From a virus: 41,207 bases of DNA. The notes beneath the pieces are model-generated. The model was given only the letters and a program-made list of their open reading frames with translations, made no database searches and was not told where the DNA came from. Position 1 is the stretch's first letter, and the number at the start of each line of letters is the position of its first letter. The translations under genes were made by a program, and so were the position numbers. Positions 1-19,472 of this stretch are shown here, piece after piece. The DNA is taken from IMG/VR virus record IMGVR_UViG_3300023179_000218, positions 1 through 41,207 of that record; one strand, written 5' to 3'.

Positions 1-16
1 GGGGGTTCTTGTTCAT
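1..16 (-). CDS. Start of a leftward gene cut by the window edge
   Basis: Only the first five codons are visible (M-N-K-N-P), reading leftward from an ATG whose complement lies at 14-16. The gene is inferred from the perfectly spaced promoter element behind it at 17-51, which is the same element that precedes the rightward genes. It forms a divergent pair with the gene at 109. Its product cannot be named. Confidence 0.6.
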
Positions 17-51
17 GGCCCTAAACTACACCCTTCGCCAAAGGCTTTTCA
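17..51 (-). promoter_or_regulatory. Leaderless-type promoter, leftward
   Basis: Read on the minus strand: -35 TGAAAA (46-51), 17-nt spacer, -10 TAGTTT (23-28), then six bases AGGGCC to the ATG at 16. The -10 keeps only the TA...T positions of the TAAGGT majority form, which supports a -10 element over a ribosome binding site. It is the only minus-strand copy found in this part of the window. Confidence 0.7.
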
Positions 52-73
52 CTCCACCCCCAGCCGTCGGCAG

Positions 74-108
74 TGAAAAGAGTCCACAGGGGAGGGTAAG
101 GTAACACC
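74..108 (+). promoter_or_regulatory. Leaderless-type promoter for the gene at 109
   Basis: -35 TGAAAA at 74-79, 17-nt spacer, -10 TAAGGT at 97-102, six bases to ATG 109. The -35 and spacer are identical to those of the next copy at 320. It is back to back with the leftward promoter at 17-51. Confidence 0.8.
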
Positions 109-345
109 ATGAAGAAGACGATCCCCCAGAGGCCGTGGCAGTCCTACTCCGGCGAGAACTTCGACCGGCTCACCGCCATGGCCCTTCAGATCGCTGACGA
201 CGCCCGGGCCAACGGTCGGGCCGAACCGGCCTACGGCTACTCCCGGGGAGACTGGGCGGAGGCCGAAGAACGTCTCATCCGCAGCGCAAAGTCCCACCGC
301 TCAGCTGCTGGCCGCCGAGTGAAAAGAGTCCACAGGGGAGGGTAA
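109..345 (+). CDS. Small hypothetical protein (78 aa), first gene of the array
   Basis: Unrecognised. The product is hydrophilic, with an acidic, tryptophan-containing middle (GDWAEAEERL near residues 45-55) and a basic tail. The start is fixed by the promoter, which leaves no room for a ribosome binding site other than the -10 itself. The reading frame runs through the whole next promoter: the last residues are encoded by its -35 and spacer, and the TAA stop (343-345) is the first half of its TAAGGT -10 box. Confidence 0.75.
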   Translation: MKKTIPQRPWQSYSGENFDRLTAMALQIADDARANGRAEPAYGYSRGDWAEAEERLIRSAKSHRSAAGRRVKRVHRGG

Positions 346-354
346 GGTAAGGAC
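320..354 (+). promoter_or_regulatory. Leaderless-type promoter for the gene at 355
   Basis: -35 TGAAAA at 320-325, 17-nt spacer, -10 TAAGGT at 343-348, six bases to ATG 355. It lies wholly inside the 3' end of the preceding gene. Confidence 0.8.
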
Positions 355-516
355 ATGAAGCCCCTCAGCAAGGAAGAGAAGGTCTCCAACCTGCGGTCCA
401 ACATCGAGTTCCTCCAGGAGCTCATCGAGGCCGGCGGCGACGAGGAGACGATCACCGTCTGGAAGCACATCAAGGCGCTGGCTGAGGTCGACCTGGCTCA
501 TCTGCTGGCCAAGTGA
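355..516 (+). CDS. Small hypothetical protein (53 aa), helical
   Basis: A short frame beginning M-K-P-L-S-K-E-E-K and ending L-L-A-K. It is almost entirely charged and leucine-rich, suggesting an alpha-helical protein; no family is recognised. Support comes from the promoter exactly upstream and from the stop: TGA 514-516 is the start of the next -35 (TGAAAA). Confidence 0.75.
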   Translation: MKPLSKEEKVSNLRSNIEFLQELIEAGGDEETITVWKHIKALAEVDLAHLLAK

Positions 517-548
517 AAAGCAACCCTTGAACAGGGTAAGGTAAGACC
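514..548 (+). promoter_or_regulatory. Leaderless-type promoter for the gene at 549
   Basis: -35 TGAAAA at 514-519 (sharing the upstream TGA stop), 17-nt spacer with inverted repeat ACCCT-TGAAC-AGGGT, -10 TAAGGT at 537-542, six bases to ATG 549. The whole element is identical to the one at 1954-1988. Confidence 0.85.
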
Positions 549-812
549 ATGAAGACCGTCAAGACCATCACCCGGACCTTCGCGGTCCTCGACAAGGCCT
601 TCCGCTACGGCTCGATCGGCGGTCGGTCGACCTACCCGAAGGGCATGGAGATGCGGATCGGCCGCGGCGGCTGGTACCTGGACGAGAACGGGGACGCGAT
701 CCTGCCGCACGGCATCTGCTACGGCGCGGCCCTGGTCGTCCCGGCGAAGTACTTCCACCTGGAGGTGGAGGAGGAGACCCACGCGGTCACCACCACCCGC
801 CGCAGGGCGTGA
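549..812 (+). CDS. Small hypothetical protein (87 aa)
   Basis: Unrecognised. It has a basic N-terminal stretch (MKTVKTITRTF) followed by a Gly/Tyr-rich segment (residues 20-60), ending in an acidic run (EVEEE) and a basic tail. There is no signal peptide or membrane segment. The stop TGA 810-812 forms the next -35. Confidence 0.75.
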   Translation: MKTVKTITRTFAVLDKAFRYGSIGGRSTYPKGMEMRIGRGGWYLDENGDAILPHGICYGAALVVPAKYFHLEVEEETHAVTTTRRRA

Positions 813-844
813 AAAGTCGATTCTGAAAGGGATAGGGTAAGACC
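810..844 (+). promoter_or_regulatory. Leaderless-type promoter for the gene at 845
   Basis: -35 TGAAAA at 810-815 (overlapping the upstream stop), 17-nt spacer, -10 TAGGGT at 833-838, six bases to ATG 845. Confidence 0.8.
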
Positions 845-1111
845 ATGAACAACACCTCCACCAAGCCCGCCAACGCCTCCCTCACCGCCTACCGCCTCGC
901 CCAGGTCCAGAAGGCCTTCGGCCACGCCGTCAAGGCGGCCGGCCACCTCGACTCCCGGACCCTGCCCCCGGACCTGGTGGCTGGCCTGACGGCCGCCCTG
1001 GGGGAGGTCAGCCGGTCCCTCCAGGCCCTGGAGGCCGCCGCCCCGGCCAAGAAGGTCCGGAGCCGGTCGGCCACGGTGGCCGCCCCGGCCGCCGCGGTCT
1101 CCTGCGACTGA
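845..1111 (+). CDS. Small hypothetical alanine-rich protein (88 aa)
   Basis: Alanine-rich and probably helical: residues 10-65 read as amphipathic helices (YRLAQVQKAFGHAVKAAGHL and later EVSRSLQALEAAAPAKK). The C-terminus is a low-complexity Ala/Val stretch. No family is recognised. It is followed by a strong hairpin (1118-1155) and is not directly joined to the next promoter by its stop codon. Confidence 0.75.
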   Translation: MNNTSTKPANASLTAYRLAQVQKAFGHAVKAAGHLDSRTLPPDLVAGLTAALGEVSRSLQALEAAAPAKKVRSRSATVAAPAAAVSCD

Positions 1112-1117
1112 GTCGGC

Positions 1118-1155
1118 CACGGCCCCTGGCGGTGAACAAGCCGCCAGGGGCCGTG
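1118..1155 (+). terminator. Strong hairpin that encloses the next promoter's -35
   Basis: A perfect 15-bp GC-rich stem (1118-1132 with 1141-1155) closes on the 8-nt loop TGAACAAG. The loop contains the next -35 (TGAACA, 1133-1138), and the -10 TACCAT starts at the base after the stem. There is no U-tract, so an intrinsic terminator is uncertain; it could equally be an operator or a cruciform. Confidence 0.55.
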
Positions 1156-1167
1156 TACCATCCGGCC
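1133..1167 (+). promoter_or_regulatory. Leaderless-type promoter for the gene at 1168
   Basis: -35 TGAACA at 1133-1138, 17-nt spacer formed entirely by loop end and stem arm, -10 TACCAT at 1156-1161, six bases CCGGCC to ATG 1168. TACCAT has no resemblance to a Shine-Dalgarno sequence, which favours the promoter reading. Confidence 0.7.
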
Positions 1168-1437
1168 ATGGCCCTCGACGCCGATCGGCTGAAGTCGTCC
1201 ATCCTCCAGGGCATCCTGGACGCTGGCATCAAGGACCCTAACGGGTCCTGGGAGTCCGTGTCGGCTGCCATCGCCCAAGCGGTGGTGGCCGAGGTGACGA
1301 CCTACGCCGAGGTCAAGGTGCCGCCGGGGTCCATCGCCCCGGGGCTGGTGTCTGTCGGGGCAGGACCAGCAGCCGCCCCGAGCCCGGCTCCCATTCCAGT
1401 CACCCAGCCCCCGGTGTCGCCGGGCGGCGTCTCCTGA
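1168..1437 (+). CDS. Small hypothetical protein (89 aa) with Pro/Ala-rich tail
   Basis: A longer frame exists from 1132, but the start is placed at ATG 1168, six bases after the TACCAT box. Residues 1-50 look helical (DADRLKSSILQGILDAGIKD, then SWESVSAAIAQAVVAEV). The last 40 residues are a Pro/Ala/Val low-complexity linker. No family is recognised. Confidence 0.7.
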   Translation: MALDADRLKSSILQGILDAGIKDPNGSWESVSAAIAQAVVAEVTTYAEVKVPPGSIAPGLVSVGAGPAAAPSPAPIPVTQPPVSPGGVS

Positions 1438-1453
1438 CCCCTGGGGCCTGAAG

Positions 1454-1488
1454 TGAAAAGCAACTCCTGAAAAGGATAAGGTAGGGAC
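1454..1488 (+). promoter_or_regulatory. Leaderless-type promoter for the gene at 1489
   Basis: -35 TGAAAA at 1454-1459, 17-nt spacer with inverted repeat TCCT-GAAA-AGGA, -10 TAAGGT at 1477-1482, six bases to ATG 1489. Confidence 0.8.
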
Positions 1489-1803
1489 ATGGACTTCAAC
1501 ACCACCCTCAACATCGCCCTCGACAACTTCGTGCAGCTCGCCCAGGCGCTCATCGACGCCCACATGACCCGGTGCTTCCCCAACCTCCCACGCGAGGTCC
1601 TGTCCCTGGACAGGGGCCGGCGGTACGTCCGGGTCGTCCGGGACAACGGCGTCCAGCGGTTCGCCTTCTGCTTCGTGGACGCCACGAACGGGGACGTCCT
1701 GAAGTCCGCGAGCTGGAAGGCTCCGGCGAAGCACGCCCGCGGGAACATCTTCGACCCCAACCCGGTGGCGGGGGTCGGCCCGTACGGCGCCAAGTACCTG
1801 TGA
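1489..1803 (+). CDS. Small hypothetical protein (104 aa)
   Basis: An N-terminal helical part (MDFNTTLNIALDNFVQLAQA) is followed by a short beta-like segment rich in Arg and Val (RRYVRVVRDNGVQRFAF, about residues 46-62) and a Gly-rich C-terminus. No catalytic motif is seen. The stop TGA 1801-1803 is part of the next -35. Confidence 0.75.
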   Translation: MDFNTTLNIALDNFVQLAQALIDAHMTRCFPNLPREVLSLDRGRRYVRVVRDNGVQRFAFCFVDATNGDVLKSASWKAPAKHARGNIFDPNPVAGVGPYGAKYL

Positions 1804-1836
1804 AAAGCGCCCCTTCGGGGGTGTAGGGTGGTCCCC
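1801..1836 (+). promoter_or_regulatory. Leaderless-type promoter for the gene at 1837
   Basis: -35 TGAAAA at 1801-1806, 17-nt spacer containing CCCC-TTC-GGGG, -10 TAGGGT at 1824-1829, seven bases to ATG 1837, the only 7-nt gap within the array. Confidence 0.75.
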
Positions 1837-1956
1837 ATGATCGACGCAATCACCGAGGTCATGGGGACCACCGCCGTGGTGGTCGGGACCTTCTTCGGGC
1901 CCATCATCGTGGCGGACATCGTGGCGGACATCGTCCGCTTCTTCCGCGGGCAGTGA
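1837..1956 (+). CDS. Small predicted membrane protein (39 aa)
   Basis: M-I-D-A-I start, then one hydrophobic segment (about residues 12-30, VVVGTFFGPIIVADIV) and a basic end (RFFRGQ), a typical single-pass miniprotein. It resembles the 36-residue product at 2271: both begin MIDAI, and both have G-P-I followed by V-A-D. Stop TGA 1954-1956 starts the next -35. Phage early miniproteins of this form often act on host membrane functions, but that is inference. Confidence 0.7.
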   Translation: MIDAITEVMGTTAVVVGTFFGPIIVADIVADIVRFFRGQ

Positions 1957-1988
1957 AAAGCAACCCTTGAACAGGGTAAGGTAAGACC
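1954..1988 (+). promoter_or_regulatory. Leaderless-type promoter for the gene at 1989
   Basis: -35 TGAAAA at 1954-1959, 17-nt spacer with ACCCT/AGGGT repeat, -10 TAAGGT at 1977-1982, six bases to ATG 1989. Base-for-base identical to the copy at 514-548. Confidence 0.85.
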
Positions 1989-2177
1989 ATGGAAACCCTC
2001 GACTACATCACGACGTGCACCTGTGACTCCTGCTCCGCCCACGGCCCGGTGGTCGTGCTCCACCACCTCGGCGCCCCGGTCCTGACGCAGTGCAAGCCGT
2101 GCATGCCGGCCGCCTTCGAGGCGGCGGCCCGGGAGGCGGTCGACCAGTGGCTGACCAGCTGGTTCGCAAGGGGGTGA
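1989..2177 (+). CDS. Small zinc-ribbon-like protein (62 aa)
   Basis: Two cysteine knuckles, C-T-C-D-S-C (about residues 10-15) and C-K-P-C (about 37-40), separated by about 21 residues of beta-type sequence, suggest one zinc-binding ribbon; a helical tail (FEAAAREAVDQWL) follows. Such minimal ribbons bind nucleic acid or protein. The assignment rests on the cysteine spacing only. Confidence 0.65.
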   Translation: METLDYITTCTCDSCSAHGPVVVLHHLGAPVLTQCKPCMPAAFEAAAREAVDQWLTSWFARG

Positions 2178-2235
2178 GCCAGTGAACGAGCGTGATCGCC
2201 TCCGGGCCGAGACCCTCGCCTGAGGCGGTCGTCAG

Positions 2236-2270
2236 TGAAAAGTCCCCCTCAAAGGAGGTACAGTAGTCCC
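2236..2270 (+). promoter_or_regulatory. Leaderless-type promoter for the gene at 2271
   Basis: -35 TGAAAA at 2236-2241, 17-nt spacer with CCT-CAA-AGG, -10 TACAGT at 2259-2264, six bases to ATG 2271. The spacer also contains AAAGGAGG, which looks like a Shine-Dalgarno sequence, but it ends 12 bases before the ATG. Confidence 0.7.
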
Positions 2271-2381
2271 ATGATCGACGCCATCATCGAAGCCGCCTCC
2301 CTCGGGGGGTTCATCTTCTCCGTCTTCGTCGGCCCCATCTACGTGGCCGACGCCGTCCGGGCCGTCCGGGGGTGGCTGTGA
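2271..2381 (+). CDS. Small predicted membrane protein (36 aa), paralogue of the gene at 1837
   Basis: Starts MIDAI and has a central hydrophobic segment (GGFIFSVFVGPIYVAD) and a short basic end. The shared start and the G-P-I-x-V-A-D core match the 39-residue protein at 1837. The end overlaps the start of the next gene in a GTGA arrangement, so the two are probably translated together. Confidence 0.65.
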   Translation: MIDAIIEAASLGGFIFSVFVGPIYVADAVRAVRGWL

Positions 2382-2632
2382 GCCGCCTCGTCCCCAGCGT
2401 CTCCTGGTCCTGCGACCGGGAGGGGCAGCTGTGGTCGGCCCAGGCCGACGGGGCGGCGGCAGGGTGGACCACCAGGAACGCCCCGGAGTCCTTCCAGGCG
2501 GCCCCGCCGCGGTCGGAGGTTCCGGTCACCTTCCACCACTCCTGCACCACGGCACGGGTCGACGGCGGCTCCACCGCCTCCTACCTGGCGGTCCAGGGCG
2601 GCCGGACCTACCTCCTCCGGGTCGCCCTGTAG
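2378..2632 (+). CDS. Hypothetical protein (84 aa), translationally coupled
   Basis: GTG 2378 overlaps the upstream TGA (GTGA), and no promoter element is present, so the gene is read with its neighbour. A slightly longer start at GTG 2372 is possible. The sequence is beta-like with several Trp and Ser residues (VSWSCDREGQLWSAQADG) and ends in TYLLRVAL. No family is recognised. Confidence 0.6.
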   Translation: MSRLVPSVSWSCDREGQLWSAQADGAAAGWTTRNAPESFQAAPPRSEVPVTFHHSCTTARVDGGSTASYLAVQGGRTYLLRVAL

Positions 2633-2654
2633 GGGAGGGGCCTACCTAGACGAG

Positions 2655-2792
2655 GTGAGCCTCACCTTCTACCTCGTCGGAATCCTCCTGGGCGCCTCCC
2701 AGGTCCTCCTGCCGGCCGCCGCCCTCTTCGCCTTCCAGTCCTGGCGGTCCGGCCGCCGCTCCTCCGTGAAAAAACCCCCACCGAAAGGGTAA
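2655..2792 (+). CDS. Small predicted membrane protein (45 aa)
   Basis: GTG 2655 lies six bases after TACCTA (2643-2648), a possible weak -10, though no TGAAAA-like -35 is at the right distance. The frame has one hydrophobic segment (TFYLVGILLGASQVLLPAAA) and a basic tail. The tail is encoded by the next promoter: the stop TAA (2790-2792) is the start of its -10 box, as for the gene at 109. Confidence 0.55.
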   Translation: MSLTFYLVGILLGASQVLLPAAALFAFQSWRSGRRSSVKKPPPKG

Positions 2793-2801
2793 GGTACAAG
2801 C
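2767..2801 (+). promoter_or_regulatory. Leaderless-type promoter for the gene at 2802
   Basis: -35 TGAAAA at 2767-2772, 17-nt spacer with CCC...GGG, -10 TAAGGT at 2790-2795, six bases to ATG 2802. Confidence 0.8.
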
Positions 2802-3047
2802 ATGCTCACCAAGCTCCCCCCCGCCACCTCCGCCTGCGCCGTCACGGCGCGCCTCCGCCAGCTCGGGTCGAAGCTGGCCGACGCCTTCACCGTCATCGAC
2901 TCCCTGGAGGCCGGAGGGGTCATGGACCCCGCCACGGTGTCCACCCTCCGGTCGGCCATGCGGGCCGCCGCCTCGGCCCAGCTGACGGCCTCTGCCTCGG
3001 CCCCGGCCATCCGCACCTACGTCAAGTCGCCGAAGGCCGAGGGCTGA
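2802..3047 (+). CDS. Small hypothetical alanine-rich protein (81 aa)
   Basis: Helical and rich in Ala, Ser and Leu (VTARLRQLGSKLADAFTVID, then TVSTLRSAMRAAASA). It has the same size and character as the product at 845, including a basic C-terminus, but no convincing alignment can be made by eye. A long hairpin follows it. Confidence 0.7.
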   Translation: MLTKLPPATSACAVTARLRQLGSKLADAFTVIDSLEAGGVMDPATVSTLRSAMRAAASAQLTASASAPAIRTYVKSPKAEG

Positions 3048-3052
3048 CCGGC

Positions 3053-3085
3053 CACCGCCGGGGGCCACACCGGCCCCCGGCGGTG
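3053..3085 (+). terminator. Strong hairpin running into the next -35
   Basis: A perfect 14-bp stem (3053-3066 with 3072-3085) with a 5-nt loop. The last two bases of the stem are the first two of the following -35 (TGAAAC, 3084-3089). There is no U-tract. Confidence 0.6.
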
Positions 3086-3118
3086 AAACCCCTCGCCCCG
3101 AAAGGGTACTATATCACC
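3084..3118 (+). promoter_or_regulatory. Leaderless-type promoter for the gene at 3119
   Basis: -35 TGAAAC at 3084-3089, 17-nt spacer, -10 TACTAT at 3107-3112, six bases to ATG 3119. This is the -10 closest to the bacterial consensus in the array. Confidence 0.8.
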
Positions 3119-3238
3119 ATGACCAACATCGAACTGTTCTGCGCCGCGGCGGAAGCCGCGTTCGGCGCCCTGGCGCTGGCCGTCTGCTCCCTCGGATTCA
3201 TCATCGGGGTCAACGAGGTGCTCCGGGGCGGGCGGTGA
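3119..3238 (+). CDS. Small predicted membrane protein (39 aa)
   Basis: One hydrophobic segment (about residues 13-31, AAFGALALAVCSLGFIIGV) between a short acidic N-terminus and a basic C-terminus (RGGR). Supported by promoter placement and by the stop TGA 3236-3238, which starts the next -35. Function unknown. Confidence 0.7.
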   Translation: MTNIELFCAAAEAAFGALALAVCSLGFIIGVNEVLRGGR

Positions 3239-3270
3239 AACCCGCCCCTCCGGGGGTGTAAGGTGATGAC
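3236..3270 (+). promoter_or_regulatory. Leaderless-type promoter for the gene at 3271
   Basis: -35 TGAAAC at 3236-3241, 17-nt spacer with CCCC-TCC-GGGG, -10 TAAGGT at 3259-3264, six bases to ATG 3271. Confidence 0.8.
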
Positions 3271-3513
3271 ATGGACAACACCGACCGAACCCTTCAGAAG
3301 ATCACCTGCGGCGTCGTCGGGTGCGGCTTCGCCGTCCTGACCGGGATGTTCATCGCGTGCATCCCAAACATGTGGGAGGACCTGAGCTGGTCCTCCCTCG
3401 GGGAGGTCTACACCTCCTCCGTGGTCGTCACCGTGATCTCGCTCGGCATCGTCTTCTTCGTCGCCGCGGCGGTGAACGGGCTGCGCACCGCCCTGTTCAA
3501 CGTCGAGCTGTGA
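3271..3513 (+). CDS. Small predicted membrane protein (80 aa), two segments
   Basis: Two hydrophobic stretches (residues about 12-31 with several Cys and Gly, and about 50-68, VVVTVISLGIVFFVAAAV) are separated by a Trp-rich loop (MWEDLSWSSLGEVY). The two-segment layout is holin-like in size, but the position among array genes and the lack of an adjacent lysin argue against a lysis role. Stop TGA 3511-3513 joins the next -35. Confidence 0.7.
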   Translation: MDNTDRTLQKITCGVVGCGFAVLTGMFIACIPNMWEDLSWSSLGEVYTSSVVVTVISLGIVFFVAAAVNGLRTALFNVEL

Positions 3514-3545
3514 AAAGCTCCCCTCCGGGGGTGTAGGATAAGACC
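3511..3545 (+). promoter_or_regulatory. Leaderless-type promoter for the gene at 3546
   Basis: -35 TGAAAA at 3511-3516, 17-nt spacer with CCCC-TCC-GGGG, -10 TAGGAT at 3534-3539, six bases to ATG 3546. Confidence 0.85.
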
Positions 3546-3818
3546 ATGAACACCGTTCGAATCGCCAACGCCGGAACCCGTCACGCTGTCCCCGTCTTCT
3601 CCGGCGAGCTCTTCGCCTGGACCCCCACCTCCGGGGTCACCGAGGCCTCCACCCTGGGCTTCGAGGTCGGCCTGTGGCCCAACGTGGTCGGGGTCGTCTC
3701 TCACCGGACCGGGGCCGAGAAGCGGTTCGTCTTCAGCCACCTGGCCAACCGCGGCACGGTGGCCATCTACCACGAGTCCCTGAAGCGGGAGCTCGTCCTC
3801 GAGGTGCTGAACACGTGA
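3546..3818 (+). CDS. Hypothetical protein (90 aa), one of a paralogous pair
   Basis: Paralogue of the 90-residue protein at 5224: residues about 17-39 (PVFSGELFAWTPTSG and the following VTEASTLG) are identical, and the DNA there is nearly identical too. The remainder keeps S-H-R-T-G and an L-E-x-L-N end but has otherwise diverged. The fold looks beta-rich. Function unknown. Confidence 0.75.
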   Translation: MNTVRIANAGTRHAVPVFSGELFAWTPTSGVTEASTLGFEVGLWPNVVGVVSHRTGAEKRFVFSHLANRGTVAIYHESLKRELVLEVLNT

Positions 3819-3849
3819 AAAGCTCCCCCTCGTGGGGTAAGGTAAGACC
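3816..3849 (+). promoter_or_regulatory. Leaderless-type promoter for the gene at 3850
   Basis: -35 TGAAAA at 3816-3821, spacer of 16 nt with CCC...GGG, -10 TAAGGT at 3838-3843, six bases to ATG 3850. Confidence 0.8.
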
Positions 3850-4269
3850 ATGGAAACCGACATCATCTTCCTCAGCCCCCGTCCCTCCCTCACCGTGGAG
3901 GGGACGGGGAGCCGCTCCCTGGGCCGGTGCTACTCCGAGGCGACGTACCGGGTCACCAGCCGCCAGCCCCTGGACCGCAAGACCCTCAAGGCCCTGTCCG
4001 AGGCGGGCGTCCTGGGCTACGGCCAGGAGTTCGGTGTCATGTACGCCACGGCGGCGGGTGGGTCCGAGCCCGTCCCCGAGACCGTGGAGTGGAACACCAG
4101 GCCGGAACCCACCGGGTGGGACGATGTCCCGGCGGTCCAGGTGGTCCGGGGCACCACCACCCCGACGGGTGCGCCGGCCATCGACACCTACACCGGCCTC
4201 CCGTACGGCCCCCAGCGGATGCCCTTCTACGTCTACAACGTGGTGCGCCGGGTGGACTCGTCCGACTGA
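3850..4269 (+). CDS. Hypothetical protein (139 aa)
   Basis: The longest product of the array. It has a beta-type N-terminus (TDIIFLSPRPSLTVEG), a short helix (RKTLKALSEAGVLGYG), and a Pro/Thr-rich second half ending YNVVRRVDSSD. No catalytic motif or family is recognised. The gap between its stop and the next -35 is eight bases. Confidence 0.75.
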   Translation: METDIIFLSPRPSLTVEGTGSRSLGRCYSEATYRVTSRQPLDRKTLKALSEAGVLGYGQEFGVMYATAAGGSEPVPETVEWNTRPEPTGWDDVPAVQVVRGTTTPTGAPAIDTYTGLPYGPQRMPFYVYNVVRRVDSSD

Positions 4270-4277
4270 GTCGGGCG

Positions 4278-4312
4278 TGAAAAACCCGGCGGCGGGGGTG
4301 TAGGATAAGACC
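4278..4312 (+). promoter_or_regulatory. Leaderless-type promoter for the gene at 4313
   Basis: -35 TGAAAA at 4278-4283, 17-nt spacer with CCC...GGG, -10 TAGGAT at 4301-4306, six bases to ATG 4313. Confidence 0.8.
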
Positions 4313-4534
4313 ATGAACAACGCCAACACCCCCGCCACCGTCGTCGTCCTCACCCGCTCCGGCGGCCGCGTCTTCCGCGTGTTCACGGTCACCTCCCTGG
4401 ACGAGGTCGTCACGGTCTGGAAGAACCACCGCGGACACGACATCGGCATCTTCGAGGACCCCACCGGGAAGACCGGGCTGCTGTGGACCTACTTCCCCGA
4501 GGAGGACGACCGCCTCCTCCGGTCCCGGTGGTGA
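4313..4534 (+). CDS. Small hypothetical protein (73 aa)
   Basis: Alternating hydrophobic residues suggest a small beta sheet (TPATVVVLTRSGGRVFRVFTV), then an acidic and Trp-containing C-terminal half (TGLLWTYFPEEDDRLL). No family recognised. The next gene starts three bases after its stop and lacks a promoter, so the pair is probably bicistronic. Confidence 0.7.
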   Translation: MNNANTPATVVVLTRSGGRVFRVFTVTSLDEVVTVWKNHRGHDIGIFEDPTGKTGLLWTYFPEEDDRLLRSRW

Positions 4535-4537
4535 CCG

Positions 4538-4891
4538 GTGCCACGACGTTCCTCTCAGAATAATCGCAACCCGGTCGGTGGGGACAACAGCGCCCCCGCC
4601 GCCTGGGAATATTCTAGATGGAACCACGACCTCAGGTGGGCCGACGTCCGGGTCGGCGACACCTTCGCATCGAGCGCGGAGCACGAGGAGGTCAACCCGG
4701 GCAGCCCCTTCGTCTACATCGTCACAGCTGTGAACCATGAGACCGTGCGCCTCGGGCCGCGCGGGTCGGAGCGCGTCGACGTCGTCATCGACGTGGCGAT
4801 GAACGAGAGCGGGCACGTGCGTCACACGCAGTGGTCCGGGCCGCCGGAAGACCTCTACTACAACGACGTGCTGGTGGCCCGGGGCCTGTGA
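4538..4891 (+). CDS. Hypothetical protein (117 aa), second gene of a pair
   Basis: Begins at GTG 4538, just after the stop of the gene at 4313. The first 30 residues are polar, Asn-rich and encoded by noticeably less GC-rich DNA than the rest (around 4550-4625). A beta-type core follows (DVRVGDTFASS, then PFVYIVTAVNHETVRLG), resembling small SH3-like barrels, but without enough to assign one. Stop TGA 4889-4891 joins the next -35. Confidence 0.7.
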   Translation: MPRRSSQNNRNPVGGDNSAPAAWEYSRWNHDLRWADVRVGDTFASSAEHEEVNPGSPFVYIVTAVNHETVRLGPRGSERVDVVIDVAMNESGHVRHTQWSGPPEDLYYNDVLVARGL

Positions 4892-4923
4892 AAAGTCCCC
4901 ACTGAAGGGGGTAAGGTAGGGAC
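4889..4923 (+). promoter_or_regulatory. Leaderless-type promoter for the gene at 4924
   Basis: -35 TGAAAA at 4889-4894, 17-nt spacer with CCCC-ACTGAA-GGGG, -10 TAAGGT at 4912-4917, six bases to ATG 4924. Confidence 0.85.
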
Positions 4924-5169
4924 ATGAACGACATCAAGCTTCTCACCAACGAGCTGGACGGCAAGCGGATCGCCTACTCTTCGCAGACGGTGTTCGTCGT
5001 GCAGGTGGGCAAGGGACCCAAGGGTTCGTACAAGACCCGGTACGTCTTCACGGGCGACCTGCCCCAAGCGGTCAAGTACTACAACTGCATCAACATCGGG
5101 TACGGGTACAAGAAGCGCCTCCTGATGCCCTCGAGCAAGAACCCGGTCCTGGCCAAGTCGGCCTCGTGA
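4924..5169 (+). CDS. Small hypothetical basic protein (81 aa)
   Basis: Lysine- and tyrosine-rich, with a beta-like middle (RIAYSSQTVFVVQVGKGPKG) and a basic C-terminus (YGYKKRLLMPSSKNPVLAKS). Unrecognised. Its stop TGA (5167-5169) overlaps a TGAAAA that no longer belongs to a complete promoter (see 5167-5189). Confidence 0.75.
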   Translation: MNDIKLLTNELDGKRIAYSSQTVFVVQVGKGPKGSYKTRYVFTGDLPQAVKYYNCINIGYGYKKRLLMPSSKNPVLAKSAS

Positions 5170-5189
5170 AAAGTCCCCCCGCGACTGAG
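5167..5189 (+). other. Vestigial promoter fused to the 3' end of a lost cassette
   Basis: TGAAAAGTCCCC begins like the copy at 4889 but continues into CCGCGACTGA with no -10. The segment CCCCGCGACTGA followed by the next -35 and spacer matches the end of the gene at 5567 and its following promoter (about 5745-5779). This looks like a deletion joining one -35 to the last codons of another cassette. Confidence 0.6.
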
Positions 5190-5223
5190 TGAAAAGCAGC
5201 CACAGGAAAGGTAAGATAAGAAC
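5190..5223 (+). promoter_or_regulatory. Leaderless-type promoter for the gene at 5224
   Basis: -35 TGAAAA at 5190-5195, 16-nt spacer, -10 TAAGAT at 5212-5217, six bases to ATG 5224. The -35 and spacer match those at 5757-5779 apart from one base of length. Confidence 0.75.
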
Positions 5224-5496
5224 ATGAACACCATCCGCACCACCGGCCGCCACTCCGAGATCCCCGTCTTCTCCGGCGAGCTGTTCGCCTGGACCCCCAC
5301 CTCCGGGGTCACCGAGGCCTCCACCCTGGGGATGAAGCCCGGCGCCCGGATGTTCCCCGCCATCATCCACGTCCAGTCCCACCGGACCGGCGTCGTCCGC
5401 AAGTTCGTCTGGGTCAACTACGGGGCGTCGGACTCGGCCCTCTACTCAGAGTACATGGGGGAGCAGGACCTGCGCCTCGAGATCCTCAACCACTGA
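5224..5496 (+). CDS. Hypothetical protein (90 aa), second of the paralogous pair
   Basis: Shares start (MNT-I/V-R), the identical PVFSGELFAWTPTSG block and length with the gene at 3546. The two differ most in residues 40-50 and 65-80. Near-identity at the DNA level in the conserved block means either recent duplication or gene conversion. Function unknown. Confidence 0.75.
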   Translation: MNTIRTTGRHSEIPVFSGELFAWTPTSGVTEASTLGMKPGARMFPAIIHVQSHRTGVVRKFVWVNYGASDSALYSEYMGEQDLRLEILNH

Positions 5497-5503
5497 GGTG
5501 ATT

Positions 5504-5533
5504 CACCCCCGGCGGGCCTTCCCGCCGGGGGTG
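5504..5533 (+). terminator. Strong hairpin running into the next -35
   Basis: A perfect 13-bp GC-rich stem (5504-5516 with 5521-5533) around the tetraloop CCTT. Its last two bases are the first two of the next TGAAAA (5532-5537). The A-run of that -35 follows the stem on the plus strand, so there is no U-tract. Confidence 0.6.
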
Positions 5534-5566
5534 AAAAGCCCCCGCTGGAGGGGGTAGGGTAAGGAC
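5532..5566 (+). promoter_or_regulatory. Leaderless-type promoter for the gene at 5567
   Basis: -35 TGAAAA at 5532-5537, 17-nt spacer with CCCC...GGGG, -10 TAGGGT at 5555-5560, six bases to ATG 5567. Confidence 0.8.
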
Positions 5567-5755
5567 ATGAAGCTCACCACCGAACAATCCGCTGCCCTCG
5601 TCCGCCTCGAGCTGTGGTGCAAGGCCACCGCGGAGGACGTGGTCAAGGTCCGCCAGCTGCCGACCGACCCCGAGTTCCAGCCCTTCATGCAGGAGCTGGT
5701 CAGGGTGGCCGACCTCATGACCCAGGTCGGCCTGATGCCGCCGCCCCGCGACTGA
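5567..5755 (+). CDS. Small hypothetical helical protein (62 aa)
   Basis: An all-helix pattern (TTEQSAALVRLELWCKATAE, then FMQELVRVADLMTQVG), ending M-P-P-P-R-D. The last codons (CCCCGCGACTGA) are duplicated, without the gene, at 5177-5188. Function unknown. Confidence 0.7.
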   Translation: MKLTTEQSAALVRLELWCKATAEDVVKVRQLPTDPEFQPFMQELVRVADLMTQVGLMPPPRD

Positions 5756-5756
5756 A

Positions 5757-5791
5757 TGAAAAGCAGCCACAGGAAAGGGTAGGGCAAGACC
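5757..5791 (+). promoter_or_regulatory. Leaderless-type promoter for the gene at 5792
   Basis: -35 TGAAAA at 5757-5762, 17-nt spacer, -10 TAGGGC at 5780-5785, six bases to ATG 5792. This is the only copy in the array whose final -10 base is not T. Confidence 0.7.
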
Positions 5792-6022
5792 ATGAACAGC
5801 GCCTCCCGCCAAGAGTACACCCAGGCCATCAACGCCCTGGCCGATACCATCAACCAGGAGACCGGCAAGATCGCGGACCCGGTCCGGTTCAAGCCCGCCC
5901 TCCGGGTCCTGGACATGTTCGTGGGGGGCTACCCCAAGGACGTGGCCATGGGCCTGGTCGAGGCTGGGATGGACGGGGACCTGGCGGCCGATATCGCGTT
6001 CGACCTCCAGGGCTGGCTGTGA
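5792..6022 (+). CDS. Small hypothetical protein (76 aa)
   Basis: Helical throughout: RQEYTQAINALADTINQETG, a Pro/Arg turn, then ALRVLDMFVGGYPKDVAMG and an acidic end (EAGMDGDLAADIAFDL). Unrecognised. Stop TGA 6020-6022 starts the next -35. Confidence 0.75.
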   Translation: MNSASRQEYTQAINALADTINQETGKIADPVRFKPALRVLDMFVGGYPKDVAMGLVEAGMDGDLAADIAFDLQGWL

Positions 6023-6054
6023 AAAGCTCCTCCCCGAAAGGGTAAGGTAGGGAC
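6020..6054 (+). promoter_or_regulatory. Leaderless-type promoter for the gene at 6055
   Basis: -35 TGAAAA at 6020-6025, 17-nt spacer with CCC-CGAAA-GGG, -10 TAAGGT at 6043-6048, six bases to ATG 6055. Confidence 0.85.
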
Positions 6055-6321
6055 ATGAACAACGTCGCCATCCTCGACCAGCCGCAGTCCTACGACAACA
6101 ACGGCCGCGAGTGCCGCATCCTGGCGGCCCTTCAGGAGCTGCCCCTGACCCGGACGGTCTCCTTCAGCCGCGGCATGAACCGCATGCAGACCTGGCGGAT
6201 CAGCGGCATCGCCCCCCAGGACATGGAGGCCGTCAAGGCCCTGCTGGCGGCCCCGGCCTACTGGGTCTTCTACCTGGAGGTCCACGGGGAAGAGGTCGAG
6301 TGGCGCAACCTGGGCTGCTGA
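6055..6321 (+). CDS. Small hypothetical protein (88 aa)
   Basis: A mixed alpha/beta pattern: CRILAALQELPLTRTVSF, a Met/Trp-rich middle (RGMNRMQTWRISG), then a helix (PQDMEAVKALLAAPAYW) and an acidic strand. No family recognised. Its stop is six bases before the next -35. Confidence 0.75.
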   Translation: MNNVAILDQPQSYDNNGRECRILAALQELPLTRTVSFSRGMNRMQTWRISGIAPQDMEAVKALLAAPAYWVFYLEVHGEEVEWRNLGC

Positions 6322-6326
6322 GCCCA

Positions 6327-6361
6327 TGAAAAGCTCCTCGCGGAAAGGGTAAGGTAGGGAC
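6327..6361 (+). promoter_or_regulatory. Leaderless-type promoter for the gene at 6362
   Basis: -35 TGAAAA at 6327-6332, 17-nt spacer, -10 TAAGGT at 6350-6355, six bases to ATG 6362. Confidence 0.8.
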
Positions 6362-6571
6362 ATGGCAAACATGAGCTACTGCAGGTTCGAGAACACCTCC
6401 AACGACCTGCTGGCCTGCGTCCGGGCCCTGGAGGAGGTCATCAACGACCCGGAGGCGGAGCCCCTCTCCCCCTCCGAGAACGGGTGCTCGTACGTGATGG
6501 TGGACCTGTGCCACCGGTACCTGGCGCTGCACGCGGAGCTGCAGCGCCTGCAGGCCGCCCCCGGGGAGTGA
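6362..6571 (+). CDS. Conserved phage/bacterial hypothetical protein (69 aa), MSYCRFENT type
   Basis: The N-terminus M-A-N-M-S-Y-C-R-F-E-N-T followed by N-D-L-x-x-C and a helix (VRALEEVIND) is a pattern I recognise from small conserved proteins of unknown function in phages and bacteria. The middle has N-G-C-S-Y, and the end is a leucine-rich helix. Three Cys (in SYCRF, LLACV and GCSY) might bind metal. Stop TGA 6569-6571 joins the next -35. The family has no assigned function that I can name. Confidence 0.75.
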   Translation: MANMSYCRFENTSNDLLACVRALEEVINDPEAEPLSPSENGCSYVMVDLCHRYLALHAELQRLQAAPGE

Positions 6572-6603
6572 AAAGATCCCCCTGGCGGGGGTAAGGTAAG
6601 GCC
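6569..6603 (+). promoter_or_regulatory. Leaderless-type promoter for the gene at 6604
   Basis: -35 TGAAAA at 6569-6574, 17-nt spacer with the strong repeat CCCCC-TGGC-GGGGG, -10 TAAGGT at 6592-6597, six bases to ATG 6604. Confidence 0.85.
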
Positions 6604-6837
6604 ATGAAGACCACCTACATCATCGAGACCCCGGCGCAGCGCAACCGCGAGACCGGGGGCGACTCCACCTACTACGCAGTCTACGCCTGCTGGCGCTCCG
6701 AGGAGCTGGGCTGGCCGCAGTCCGAGCTCTACAGCTTCTACGACACCCTGGCGGAGGCCGAGGCTGGGGTCCGCGAGGCGGAGGCCTACGACGCATGGCA
6801 CCCGCGTGAAAAGGACGGCGACAAGGGGGTAGGGTGA
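6604..6837 (+). CDS. Small hypothetical protein (77 aa) overlapping the next promoter
   Basis: Begins MKTTYIIET, continues with aromatic-rich sequence (STYYAVYACWRSEELGW) and an acidic helix (TLAEAEAGVREAEAYDAW). The last 12 codons read through the next -35 and spacer, and TGA 6835-6837 starts at the last base of its -10 box. Unrecognised. Confidence 0.7.
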   Translation: MKTTYIIETPAQRNRETGGDSTYYAVYACWRSEELGWPQSELYSFYDTLAEAEAGVREAEAYDAWHPREKDGDKGVG

Positions 6838-6841
6838 GGGC
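6807..6841 (+). promoter_or_regulatory. Leaderless-type promoter for the gene at 6842
   Basis: -35 TGAAAA at 6807-6812, 17-nt spacer without an evident inverted repeat, -10 TAGGGT at 6830-6835, six bases to ATG 6842. Confidence 0.75.
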
Positions 6842-7030
6842 ATGAAGAACGCCAAGAGCAGCAGGGTCCCGGGGCGCTCCTCCCTGGCGGAGGGCGAGGC
6901 GGTGGAGTGGATGGGCGACACGTGGCGCGTGCAGGCGCTCGACGGTGAGAGCATCACGCTCGAGGACCGCGACGGCCTGGGCATCACGGTGAGCGCGTGG
7001 GCGCGCGAGGTGGCGCCTCTTCGCCTGTGA
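6842..7030 (+). CDS. Small hypothetical protein (62 aa), SH3-like pattern
   Basis: After a basic N-terminus, residues 18-60 alternate short strands and turns (EAVEWMGDTWRVQALDGESI, then LEDRDGLGITVSAWAREVAP). This resembles a small SH3-type barrel; the match is only by pattern. Stop TGA 7028-7030 starts the last promoter of the array. Confidence 0.7.
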   Translation: MKNAKSSRVPGRSSLAEGEAVEWMGDTWRVQALDGESITLEDRDGLGITVSAWAREVAPLRL

Positions 7031-7062
7031 AAAGGCGGGACCGGAGGGGGTAAGGTAAGACC
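7028..7062 (+). promoter_or_regulatory. Leaderless-type promoter for the gene at 7063
   Basis: -35 TGAAAA at 7028-7033, 17-nt spacer, -10 TAAGGT at 7051-7056, six bases to ATG 7063. Last copy of the array. Confidence 0.8.
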
Positions 7063-7206
7063 ATGAAGAGCGACGGCAAGAAGGCGGCGCCCCGGAACGC
7101 GGTGGTCCTGGGCATGATCCTCACGAAGAAGCACGCGAAGTTCCGCCACCGCGCCGACCGGCGGCCGAAGGACGCCCGGAGGGACGAGCGGCGGGCGGGC
7201 TGGTGA
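7063..7206 (+). CDS. Small very basic protein (47 aa), last gene of the array
   Basis: Starts MKSDGKKAAPRNAVVLGM and ends with an Arg/Lys-rich tail (about 17 Arg+Lys in total). Such a charge suggests nucleic-acid or polyanion binding, which is inference. The reading frame stops just before the long non-coding region. Confidence 0.65.
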   Translation: MKSDGKKAAPRNAVVLGMILTKKHAKFRHRADRRPKDARRDERRAGW

Positions 7207-7263
7207 GGGGGGTCGGTGGGGGCTGCGACGGGGCCCCCTTCGGGACGGCTGCCAGGGGGTGGC

Positions 7264-7303
7264 AGGGGGCCCCCTAAAAAGGTCCCAAAATAGGGGGCCC
7301 CCT
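7264..7303. repeat. Two copies of the palindrome AGGGGGCCCCCT
   Basis: Perfect 12-bp palindromes at 7264-7275 and 7292-7303, starts 28 bp apart, separated by an A-rich stretch. They could be hairpins at the end of the array transcript or a protein-binding pair. Confidence 0.7.
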
Positions 7304-7367
7304 GGGCCCGGGGCCCTGCCAACCTGTGTGGGGCTTTTCACCGGGGCGGCCGCCCATGCCCGCCCAC

Positions 7368-7574
7368 AAAATTCCCGGGACTTTTCCCGAACAGCACTGC
7401 CCCGCTGCCCTCCAGAATTTCCCGGGCACCTACCCAGGTCCCCCAGCCCCTCTGCCCTCCAGAATCTCCCGGACGCTGACCCCCTCCGGGGCCGCCGCCC
7501 CTCCCGAAAATTTCCCGGGAATTTTTTTGGTCCGGGGCCGCCGCCGTGTCCCGGAAATTTCCCGGGAAAATTTT
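7368..7574. repeat. Five TTTCCCGGGA-type palindromes with a 46-47 bp period
   Basis: The CCC/GGG centres fall at about 7376, 7423, 7470, 7516 and 7563, giving spacings of 47, 47, 46 and 47. Copies 4 and 5 are flanked by A and T runs (AAAATTTCCCGGGAATTTT type). Intervening DNA is also partly repeated: TGCCCTCCAGAAT before copies 2 and 3, and CCGGGGCCGCCGCC before copies 4 and 5. Copy 3 is degenerate (TCTCCCGGAC). Confidence 0.75.
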
Positions 7575-7601
7575 GCCCCGGTGGCCGATAGGTAGGGCCC
7601 T
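7565..7601 (+). promoter_or_regulatory. Possible leaderless promoter for the gene at 7602
   Basis: A GGAAAA -35-like box (7565-7570) lies inside the fifth palindrome, 18 nt before TAGGTA (7589-7594), and seven bases then lead to ATG 7602. It deviates from the array type at the final -10 base. Confidence 0.45.
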
Positions 7602-10389: not shown

Positions 10390-10425
10390 TGTAAACAGGT
10401 CCGCCCCACCGGGTAGTGTAAGACT
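10390..10425 (+). promoter_or_regulatory. Leaderless-type promoter for the gene at 10426
   Basis: -35-like TGTAAA at 10390-10395, 18-nt spacer, -10 TAGTGT at 10414-10419, six bases to ATG 10426. Confidence 0.6.
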
Positions 10426-10629
10426 ATGTTGCCATTCAAGAACGCCACCTATATCGCCCATGGATTCGTCGCCCGGCGTCCCCACCTGGCCTCTGGCCAC
10501 CTGACTGACATCGACAGGGCGGCAGTCAGGTCCCTGGCGCGGCGGCACAGCATCCCGGACGACCTGCTGCTCCGCGAGGTGGAGGCAGAAGTCGACTGGC
10601 TGGACCACCGCGTCCCCCTGGAGACGTGA
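10426..10629 (+). CDS. Small hypothetical protein (67 aa)
   Basis: Helical, with a mildly hydrophobic start (MLPFKNATYIAHGFVARR) and a charged C-terminal half (DDLLLREVEAEVDWLDHR). No family recognised. TGA 10627-10629 forms the next -35, the same arrangement as in the left array. Confidence 0.65.
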   Translation: MLPFKNATYIAHGFVARRPHLASGHLTDIDRAAVRSLARRHSIPDDLLLREVEAEVDWLDHRVPLET

Positions 10630-10661
10630 AATAGCACCGCGGGGTGGTGTAGGGTGGACAC
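10627..10661 (+). promoter_or_regulatory. Leaderless-type promoter for the gene at 10662
   Basis: -35 TGAAAT at 10627-10632, 17-nt spacer, -10 TAGGGT at 10650-10655, six bases to ATG 10662. Confidence 0.75.
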
Positions 10662-11051
10662 ATGAGAGTCCTGGTCCTCGACGACATCAAGCACCGCCAC
10701 GACACCTTCGATCGAACCTACGACGGTCCTGACGACGAGGTGGTCCACTGCTACAGGTACTTCCACTTCCTGGACATGCTCCTCACCTGCAGGTGGGACC
10801 TGATCCACCTGGACCACGACCTGGGCGACTTCGTGGACAACGCCGACACCTACGTGGATGGCTGGGGCAACTCCCAGGAGTACAATGGGGGGCACGCCGC
10901 CATGAGGGTCTGCGAGCTGGATGACGACTGCCTGCCCGACCGCGTCATCGTCCACTCGGTCAACCCTGTCGGGGCCAGGGCCATGGTGTCGCTCCTGCAG
11001 CGGAGGGGCGTACCTGTCACGTGGGAGCCCTTTGGAGACCTGCCACCCTGA
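10662..11051 (+). CDS. cREC-type receiver-domain protein (129 aa)
   Basis: Seen: M-R-V-L-V-L-D-D at the start (acid pocket of a receiver fold), then W-D-L-I-H-L-D-H-D-L-G at about residues 45-55, N-G-G-H-A-A-M, and V-I-V-H-S-V-N-P-V-G-A followed by M-x-x-L-L-x-x-x-G. This combination, with paired His residues, matches the cyclic-phosphate processing receiver (cREC) family, which was predicted from comparative genomics to act on cyclic phosphate ends of nucleotides or RNA. It fills the entire protein. Its own promoter is of the array type. A phage role in RNA end repair is inference. Confidence 0.75.
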   Translation: MRVLVLDDIKHRHDTFDRTYDGPDDEVVHCYRYFHFLDMLLTCRWDLIHLDHDLGDFVDNADTYVDGWGNSQEYNGGHAAMRVCELDDDCLPDRVIVHSVNPVGARAMVSLLQRRGVPVTWEPFGDLPP

Positions 11052-11084
11052 ACACATCGCTGTAGGACGCGGTACAGTGGCAGC
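11049..11084 (+). promoter_or_regulatory. Leaderless-type promoter for the gene at 11085
   Basis: -35 TGAACA at 11049-11054 (starting with the upstream TGA stop), 18-nt spacer, -10 TACAGT at 11073-11078, six bases to ATG 11085. Confidence 0.65.
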
Positions 11085-11339
11085 ATGCAAGACGGAGACA
11101 AGCTAACAGCCCGACACGTCCTCGACCGGCTCGCAGCCGCTGTCGTCATCCTCGAAGAGCTAGCGGCCGGGGACGTGTCGGGCCTCCACGTTGACGCGCA
11201 GTGGTCTAGCATACCGTACCCTGACGACCACCTGGTTTTTCTCCGCGACCAAGTGTCAGGCCTGGCGGCCTCCCTTAGGGAGGGACCACCCCCCAACCAG
11301 CCTAGAGTCGCCGTCGTCGACACTGAAGGTGCCATGTGA
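11085..11339 (+). CDS. Small hypothetical protein (84 aa)
   Basis: A helical first half (ARHVLDRLAAAVVILEELAAG) and a second part with P-Y-P-D-D-H-L-V-F-L-R-D. Unrecognised. Its ATG-TGA end overlaps the GTG start of the next gene. Confidence 0.65.
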   Translation: MQDGDKLTARHVLDRLAAAVVILEELAAGDVSGLHVDAQWSSIPYPDDHLVFLRDQVSGLAASLREGPPPNQPRVAVVDTEGAM

Positions 11340-11527: not shown

Positions 11528-12327
11528 GCGCTGGACGCATCCCGCATCAGTATCCTGTCAAAAGCCCCAGCTCGAGCTGTCATTAGGCGGTCAATGAGGC
11601 CGGCCCGCCTCAGGGCCTTGTATGACAGGTTCTCGACTGACCCCTCCCCATCGCGCTGCAGCCCAGCGCTCCGCATGTCCCGAAGCTTCTTGAGCAGGCC
11701 GTCGGCGCCGGATAGGTCCCATACGGTCTCAGCCCTTCGCATGTTCCTGACGGCTTGGCGTATCTCTTGGGCCAGGGCCCGAGCCTTCTTGGACACGTCT
11801 GGGTACGGCGCCCACTCTCCGGGGTCCTGCCTCTGCACCCACTCGTCCCCGGCGAGGGAGTAGACTCCGGCGGCGTAGTGTGGCTCTGACTCGTCCTGGA
11901 CGTAGACCTCTACCGGGTGCCCCGCTATCTTGATGTCATGTTGCGTGTTCCAGGCCCGTCCCCGCGCCTTGAAGTAGTCGGCCGCCATCGACTCGTCGCT
12001 GTCGTACCTGACCACTAGGTGGACGTCGAGGTCGCCCAGCGGCGACCACCTCTCACCCGTCGTGGACCCCGTCAGGACGACGTCGACTAGCTGGGCTGCC
12101 CCCTCGTCGTCCCCTAGCCCTTCCCACACGTCTTTAGCGACAGCCAGCAGAGCCTCTCTCACCTCAGCGTGCATCTTCTCCTCGTCGTCCCAGACGCGGC
12201 TGTCTAGGCCGTGTGGTGGCCTTGTCACGTCCTTGACGGCGGCTGCCACCGAGACTGCCTTACCCTTCGACTCCTGTAGCGTCATGAGCGCACCATAAAT
12301 AGATGACAGCCTATACTTAGGCTCCAT
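11524..12327 (-). CDS. Predicted nucleotidyltransferase of the pol-beta fold (about 267 aa)
   Basis: The diagnostic motif is V-L-T-G-S-T-T-G-E-R-W-S-P-L-G-D-L-D-V-H-L-V (about residues 85-106), the GS...DhD signature, followed by a plausible third acidic strand in H-P-V-E-V-Y-V. Such enzymes transfer a nucleotide to RNA, protein or drug. The substrate is unknown. The C-terminal third is helical with many Arg. ATG 12327 is chosen; TTG 12333 and ATG 12285 (after TATGGT plus six bases, the array spacing) are alternatives. It is divergent from the gene at 12345 with under 20 bp between starts. Confidence 0.7.
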   Translation of the reverse strand: MEPKYRLSSIYGALMTLQESKGKAVSVAAAVKDVTRPPHGLDSRVWDDEEKMHAEVREALLAVAKDVWEGLGDDEGAAQLVDVVLTGSTTGERWSPLGDLDVHLVVRYDSDESMAADYFKARGRAWNTQHDIKIAGHPVEVYVQDESEPHYAAGVYSLAGDEWVQRQDPGEWAPYPDVSKKARALAQEIRQAVRNMRRAETVWDLSGADGLLKKLRDMRSAGLQRDGEGSVENLSYKALRRAGLIDRLMTARAGAFDRILMRDASSA

Positions 12328-12344
12328 AAGCAAGGGATTACAGC

Positions 12345-13903: not shown

Positions 13904-14128
13904 ATGGGCCCTGAAGCTCCTGATTATTCAGGCGATCCACTGGCCTACCTGCGGGCCTACGTCGAGTGCCTCCTCAGGGAAGGAAAGGCCAACCGGCCGC
14001 GGAAGGGCATGAAGTCTCGGTGGAGCCTCAAGTACAAGAGGTCCATCGACTGCTCCCACCCTCGGGGGTTCTCCCAGACAAACTACTGCAAGAGGCGGGC
14101 CCGGGGAGGCCACTACTCAGACGGGTGA
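13904..14128 (+). CDS. Small phage protein with C-S-H-P-R-G-F-S-Q motif (74 aa)
   Basis: ATG 13904 is preferred over an upstream in-frame start that would overlap the previous gene, because GGGAGGTGG lies just before it. Residues about 50-70 contain S-I-D-C-S-H-P-R-G-F-S-Q then Y-C-K-R-R-A-R-G-G, a Cys/basic motif that I recognise from small proteins and protein tails in other large phages, though I cannot name its function. Its stop TGA 14126-14128 forms the -35 of the ligase promoter. Confidence 0.6.
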   Translation: MGPEAPDYSGDPLAYLRAYVECLLREGKANRPRKGMKSRWSLKYKRSIDCSHPRGFSQTNYCKRRARGGHYSDG

Positions 14129-14161
14129 AAAGCTGGCCCAGCCTGGTGTATGGTAGCTACC
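14126..14161 (+). promoter_or_regulatory. Leaderless-type promoter for the DNA ligase gene
   Basis: -35 TGAAAA at 14126-14131, 17-nt spacer, -10 TATGGT at 14149-14154, seven bases to ATG 14162. It is the same element as in the left array and sets the ligase start. Confidence 0.75.
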
Positions 14162-19386: not shown

Positions 19387-19398
19387 GCGGCGTGCCAG

Positions 19399-19467: not shown

Positions 19468-19472
19468 CTAAG

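Follow-up and report, generated by a model that had tools for sequence, protein, structure and literature searches.

A promoter-like box at the start codons of small genes in an uncultured jumbo-myophage lineage: in silico evidence for leaderless mRNAs

Introduction

How does a virus express a row of tiny, tightly packed genes when nearly every one of them is preceded by almost the same short element, lying directly against its ATG? The question is raised by the first 7 kb of the virus contig IMGVR_UViG_3300023179_000218 (record G000, 41,207 bases, analysed as a whole and hereafter called the window), where 24 such boxes stand one behind the other. As the box resembles a -35/-10 pair but may also be read as a site of ribosome binding, we compared it within the window and with related viral records. 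The explanation that we consider very probable is that the boxes are sigma-70-type promoters with the transcription start at the A of the ATG, giving leaderless mRNAs. If true, dozens of small genes in a whole giant-phage lineage are each expressed from their own promoter as a leaderless mRNA, which would be a compact viral expression system, would help to call the correct start codons of orphan small genes, and would offer a natural test of when infection favours leaderless translation.

Results and Discussion

The array in the window

The initial annotation described 24 boxes by their words, spacing and distance to ATG, and all 24 were located between positions 73 and 7065 (+). A relaxed pattern applied to positions 1-7300 gave exactly 24 matches on the + strand and one on the - strand, while 500 dinucleotide shuffles held 0.004 boxes on average (maximum 1). 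The spacer from TGAAAA to the -10 word is 17 nt, with 16 nt in only two cases (genes 3850 and 5224), the distance from the -10 word to ATG is six bases (seven once, gene 1837), and the single -10 word without T at the sixth base is TAGGGC (gene 5792). The boxes of the array and the further copies in the window are as follows.

73-111, +, box 1, GTGAAA-N18-TAAGGT-N6-ATG; gene 109-345
319-357, +, box 2; gene 355-516
513-551, +, box 3, its TGA being the stop codon of the preceding gene; gene 549-812
809-847, +, box 4, TAGGGT; gene 845-1111
1132-1170, +, box 5, GTGAAC, TACCAT; gene 1168-1437
1453-1491, +, box 6; gene 1489-1803 (DUF7717)
1800-1839, +, box 7, TAGGGT, N7; gene 1837-1956
1953-1991, +, box 8; gene 1989-2177
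2235-2273, +, box 9, TACAGT; gene 2271-2381
2766-2804, +, box 10; gene 2802-3047
3083-3121, +, box 11, TACTAT; gene 3119-3238
3235-3273, +, box 12; gene 3271-3513
3510-3548, +, box 13, TAGGAT; gene 3546-3818
3815-3852, +, box 14, spacer one base shorter; gene 3850-4269, orthologue of G002 104207-104656
4277-4315, +, box 15, TAGGAT; gene 4313-4534
4888-4926, +, box 16; gene 4924-5169
5189-5226, +, box 17, TAAGAT, shorter spacer; gene 5224-5496, paralogue of 3546-3818, homologue of G002 105327-105614
5531-5569, +, box 18, TAGGGT; gene 5567-5755
5756-5794, +, box 19, ATGAAA, TAGGGC (sole sixth-base exception); gene 5792-6022
6019-6057, +, box 20; gene 6055-6321
6326-6364, +, box 21, ATGAAA; gene 6362-6571
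6568-6606, +, box 22; gene 6604-6837
6806-6844, +, box 23, TAGGGT; gene 6842-7030
7027-7065, +, box 24; gene 7063-7206
14-52, -, divergent box; gene running out of the window leftward
10390-10428, +, weak copy, TGTAAA, TAGTGT; gene 10426-10629
10626-10664, +, copy, GTGAAA, TAGGGT; gene 10662-11051 (cREC_REC domain)
11049-11087, +, copy, TGAACA, TACAGT; gene 11085-11339
14125-14164, +, copy, GTGAAA, TATGGT, N7; ATP-dependent DNA ligase gene 14162-15511

The 24 open reading frames (ORFs) behind the array boxes are genuinely coding, since their G+C content by codon position is 0.63/0.48/0.95, i.e., very high at the third position while only 0.48 at the second. The genes are tightly packed, with many gaps of 31-32 nt, and in 11 of the 24 boxes the TGA within the -35 word is at the same time the stop codon of the preceding gene, so that the intergenic gap is hardly longer than the promoter itself. 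One promoter per tiny gene, as had been proposed, is true of nearly every gene and not of all, since a few genes without a box of their own (e.g., 2372-2632 and 4538-4891, which both start with GTG) lie in the same 7 kb. Box 3 (513) and box 8 (1953) have the same sequence, which suggests recent copying within the array.

In the small genes (109-7206) G+C makes up 95% of the third codon positions, against 34-76% in the late-strand genes (20164-41170), a contrast suggesting a different origin, age or codon selection. Right after the last array gene, at 7240-7600, follows a non-coding stretch that is rich in G+C and in which AATTTCCCGGGA-like words recur, possibly a replication or regulatory region.

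The source genome and its lineage

At least 315 relatives of the large tail protein of the window (31517-34873) are present in IMG/VR, the longest of their contigs measuring 369 kb, and the protein has no match among 50,697 phage records (INPHARED). For this reason the window is a fragment from an uncultured jumbo-myophage lineage. It has tail and baseplate proteins, the DNA ligase and a gp55-like sigma factor in common with the records G023, G018 and G002. The last of these (114 kb, with more than 50 tRNA genes) shares with the window its tail proteins, two small genes of the array and the DNA ligase (52% identity). The tail and baseplate genes of the window lie on the - strand, together with the following gene.

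40523-41170, -, late sigma factor like gp55 of T4, encoded opposite to the small genes

A DNA-level comparison of the window with INPHARED gave no relatives that matter, a protein search with the small array genes found none, and an Rfam search gave no match.

The corrected motif and its spread through the lineage

The strict pattern copied from the window had no match in IMG/VR, and a looser box pattern recovered the first relatives. Alignment with these gave the motif GTGnAA-N18-TAnnnT-N5-C-ATG, with GTGnAA at -36 to -31 and a C nearly fixed at -1; the geometry first described as TGAAAA-N17-TAnnnT-N6-ATG is thus retained, while its left element had been placed one base too far to the right. 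A search of related phages, which had been recommended as a check, found GTGnAA-N18-TAnnnT-N6-ATG in 17 of 23 related records (one match in total for a reversed-pattern control), and in the richest of them nearly all copies lie on one strand, before small genes and before DNA ligase. Six relatives hold 171 exact ATG-adjacent boxes (none in shuffles), and the same box is followed there by GTG, TTG and CTG in four, zero and two cases, respectively.

When the -35 element was not required, TAnnnT peaked sharply at 12 nt before ATG, with a smaller shoulder at 13, on the small-gene strand only, and hardly ever stood there before GTG or TTG (window and relatives). The peak at 12 nt was 23 against about 1 in the window, 47 against about 2-3 in G002 and 103 against about 14 in G023. 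G032 had a weaker peak (72 against about 28) with hardly any GTGnAA copies, so the -35 element is not universal. When the DNA ligase proteins of the window and G002 were aligned, their start coincided with the ATG of the box, and TAnnnT lies exactly at -12 to -7 in 16 of 23 ligase loci, its core differing by locus (three more are off by one or two bases). The per-gene layout of boxes is a property of the lineage and not unique to the phage of the window. Before the tRNA genes of G002, one candidate box only was found (48945), and it was not convincing.

Promoter or translation element

The box could instead be a translation-initiation element of the AAGG type, i.e., a start-associated repeat in a polycistronic mRNA and no promoter. 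More than half of the window boxes read TAAGGT, which puts AAGG 7 nt before ATG, the genes are tightly packed, and the start-associated sequences of cluster K mycobacteriophages were interpreted in this way (PMC3203893). The relatives speak otherwise. In G002 the cores are TAGACT, TAGGAT, TACACT, TAGATT and others, with T, A and T kept and only 0.06 bits at position -8, and a motif conserved only as AAGG, which had been named in advance as the outcome that would overturn the promoter, is the opposite of what was obtained. GTGnAA, at its fixed spacing of 18 nt, appears at -36 also in logos selected on TAnnnT-N6-ATG alone, and since many of its copies in G002 are GTGCAA or GTGTAA, it is no by-product of TGA stop codons. 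Furthermore, boxes without an adjacent ATG have a separate, real Shine-Dalgarno (SD) sequence downstream (see below), and GTG and TTG starts are almost never used. Taken with these observations, a purely translational element seems very improbable.

Because the core varies in the relatives while T, A and T stay, TAnnnT behaves as a -10 box and not as an SD site across the lineage. The arrangement agrees with sigma-70-type promoters in having a -10 TAnnnT with a -35 element 16-18 nt upstream, although GTGnAA matches TTGACA in part only, and a scan of the sequence with the strict sigma-70 consensus gave no promoter matches.

The predicted leaderless start point

From the end of the -10 hexamer to the A of ATG there are six bases, and this is the normal distance from -10 to start point in sigma-70 promoters. 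The proposed start at the A of ATG is thus supported in silico by the register of the box. C at -1 is present in 173 of 185 motif genes (94%) against 116 of 284 SD-type starts (41%), the latter being a mechanically chosen set that includes spurious ORFs. In Mycobacterium tuberculosis, mapped starts are preferentially purines that follow a C at -1 and precede a T at +2 (PMC3898074), and TANNNT about 12 bp upstream is a published hallmark of bacterial leaderless genes (PMC3160421).

A position weight matrix (PWM) trained on -38 to -7 only, and so blind to the start codon, also found boxes without an adjacent ATG; in 12 of these 17, box and ATG are separated by a leader of about 10-43 nt that contains AGGAG or GGAGG (e.g., ACAAACCAAGGAGGTCACCATG in G016). 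These exceptions, with the same promoter followed by leader and SD, form a ready-made comparison set. All this amounts to strong in silico evidence that the boxes are promoters of leaderless mRNAs. In this very probable explanation, each box would act as a sigma-70-type promoter (-35 GTGnAA, about 18 nt, -10 TAnnnT), transcription would start at the A of ATG, and each gene would yield a leaderless mRNA translated without an SD sequence. The box would then be the standard promoter of one gene class in these uncultured jumbo myophages, probably an early class, to judge from gene size, orphan content and the structural genes on the opposite strand.

Several points weigh against this explanation. 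The lack of AGGAG or GGAGG at the ATG-adjacent PWM boxes (0 of 195) is partly forced, as the -10 box fills the SD window at these sites, so the informative half of the contrast is the real SDs at boxes without an adjacent ATG. Moreover, related sites of the same genome do not count as independent observations. Neither phage records nor GTDB genomes, searched with the tail protein, gave a link to a host, and efficient translation of leaderless mRNAs by the host is an assumption. Finally, the -10 core in the window is mostly AGG or GGG, unlike that of the relatives, and the AAGG of TAAGGT stands at normal SD spacing; the initial claim that the box is no ribosome-binding site, which holds for the lineage, is perhaps too absolute for this phage, where a double role would fit.

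Likely read-through, possible double use and recombination

No intrinsic terminators were found between the array genes on the + strand, and the promoters should consequently read into the next genes, so that nested read-through across successive boxes is likely, and expression could increase towards the end of the array. The expectation of strong, uniform and independently timed expression is not supported, as nothing in the sequence speaks of strength, uniformity or timing and read-through is to be expected.

Such read-through makes room for a leaderless promoter whose core, in the window phage, has drifted to AGG and also serves as a weak SD on the read-through mRNA. This is compatible with leaderless promoters, though we hold it to be less likely than not: the strong enrichment of the core in AGG is confined to the window phage and not shared by the relatives, no terminators were found between the genes on the + strand, and the -35 word overlaps the preceding stop codon in the 11 boxes mentioned, but the AGG excess could simply reflect recent copying of boxes such as the identical pair.

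Mobile regulatory cassettes have been proposed for T4-type phages, reportedly by Arbiol 2010 as the original source. Boxes that persist mainly as recombination sites for swapping small-gene cassettes, with a secondary promoter role, would account for one box per small gene, for cassettes of unrelated small genes and for identical boxes in the array, and a role of this kind is cited for such phages (PMC4177764). We consider this unlikely, though compatible with promoter function, as a fixed -35, -10 and C at -1 with a free spacer is the pattern of a promoter and no homology tract, the box also precedes single core genes, DNA ligase among them, and the stem-loop that T4-type cassettes have at each early promoter was not supported at the boxes.

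Least probable of all is a conserved hairpin of C-rich and G-rich spacer halves, acting as terminator or regulatory stem. Many spacers do resemble CCC...GGG, but no T-run follows on the + strand, and pairing within sites was no better than in between-site shuffles (P 0.25 in the window, 0.07 in G002), so this candidate was rejected.

Comparison with known systems

Leaderless "TA-led" genes are known in Actinobacteria and Deinococcus-Thermus (PMC3160421, PMC3898074, PMC4633059, PMC12340547). The boxes resemble them in TANNNT about 12 nt upstream in sharp register, in a predicted start point on the first base of the start codon and in the lack of an SD before the start (the 0 of 195 given above, with the caveat that the -10 in the window phage contains AAGG). 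They differ from them in the conserved -35-like GTGnAA, in being repeated once per gene in viral arrays and in using ATG almost exclusively, where mycobacteria also use GTG.

The start-associated sequences (SAS) and extended SAS (ESAS) of cluster K mycobacteriophages are likewise near-identical elements repeated at many small non-structural gene starts, and ESAS have SigA-like -35 and -10 hexamers 17-18 bp apart (PMC3203893; PMC11373665). However, the SAS (GGGATAGGAGCCC) resembles an SD, and the ESAS promoter, being located upstream of the SAS, gives a leader. The 13-bp SAS, expected 3-9 bp from the start codon, was absent from the box logo, and the 15-17 bp imperfect inverted repeat of ESAS is unsupported here, with spacer pairing not above shuffles and with logos that show no repeat on either side of the box.

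Promoters of T4 yield leaders with an SD, and neither the leaderless register nor GTGnAA is known as a T4 feature. Otherwise the array is like T4-type early promoters and hyperplastic regions in its many small, probably early genes, in its repeated, presumably strong sigma-70-type promoters and in belonging to a myophage with a gp55-type late sigma (PMC2988021; PMC4177764). The late TATG promoters of phiKZ share the jumbo phage, the minimal length and a start at the TATG word, but unlike the box they are read by a phage multisubunit RNA polymerase, without -35 and without the TAnnnT-N6 register (PMC5312081). A literature search on jumbo phage, leaderless and promoter gave the AR9 paper only. 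Since leaderless genes, repeated phage promoters and unusual jumbo promoters are each already known, what we judge to be new is a systematic class of one leaderless promoter per gene, conserved over a jumbo lineage.

Possible readers of the box

The box would be read by the primary sigma factor of the host, which is the simplest candidate, or by a split sigma factor of the phage itself. A sigma-70-like protein with regions 2 and 3 is encoded by seven of eight large relatives searched, and by G002. In every copy read it ends before region 4.2, and the C-termini resemble one another (e.g., ...YPITEDEARRVMEGKGLT). Five genomes have region 4.2 (Pfam PF04545, E ~1e-8) on a small ORF of its own, 86-95 aa long in the four that were read completely, with a C/H-rich zinc-like motif and the recognition helix RMRICQIE instead of RERIRQIE. 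A further homologue of the small protein is present in G033 (L216).

G002: 62301-63173, -, sigma-70-like long protein
G023: 33359-34174, -, long protein; 304287-304574, +, small protein
G018: 113498-114400, -, long protein; 19395-19676, +, small protein
G016: 104797-105642, -, long protein; 1231-1515, +, small protein
G032: 263648-264532, +, long protein; 12232-12492, -, small protein

By these domain matches the lineage divides its sigma-70 over two genes, and the SigO/RsoA pair of Bacillus subtilis is likewise a two-subunit sigma. The small protein may partner the long one, or else the gp55-like protein at late promoters. That the split sigma (regions 2-3-4.1 plus the zinc-finger-like region 4.2 of about 90 aa with its altered helix) reads the boxes, as a dedicated leaderless programme for this gene class, is conceivable and rather improbable.

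G016 also encodes a second, complete small sigma (132909-133598, -; regions 2, 3 and 4; 229 aa) inside its small-gene array, and this gene itself stands behind a box (GTGTAA...TACAGT-N6-ATG). Another repeated word, ATAC(T/C/G)TA, is frequently placed about 12 nt ahead of ATG, or ahead of an SD-bearing leader (- strand of G018 and G023; 12313, +, in the window). Its totals are below shuffle expectation, yet it is strongly biased to gene starts and is possibly a late-type promoter for the gp55-like sigma; the T4 late word TATAAATA was looked for and was absent.

Other features

The relatives G001, G002 and G003 (L089-L100) have Pfam matches to major vault protein shoulder and repeat domains, SPFH/Band 7, OmpA, GroEL, RF-1 release factor, TANGO2 and NADAR. 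In the window, 19069-19386 (+) encodes a small protein with a lipobox-like start (LLLAAVLIAGC), possibly a spanin or another kind of lipoprotein, and so would hint that the host has an outer membrane.

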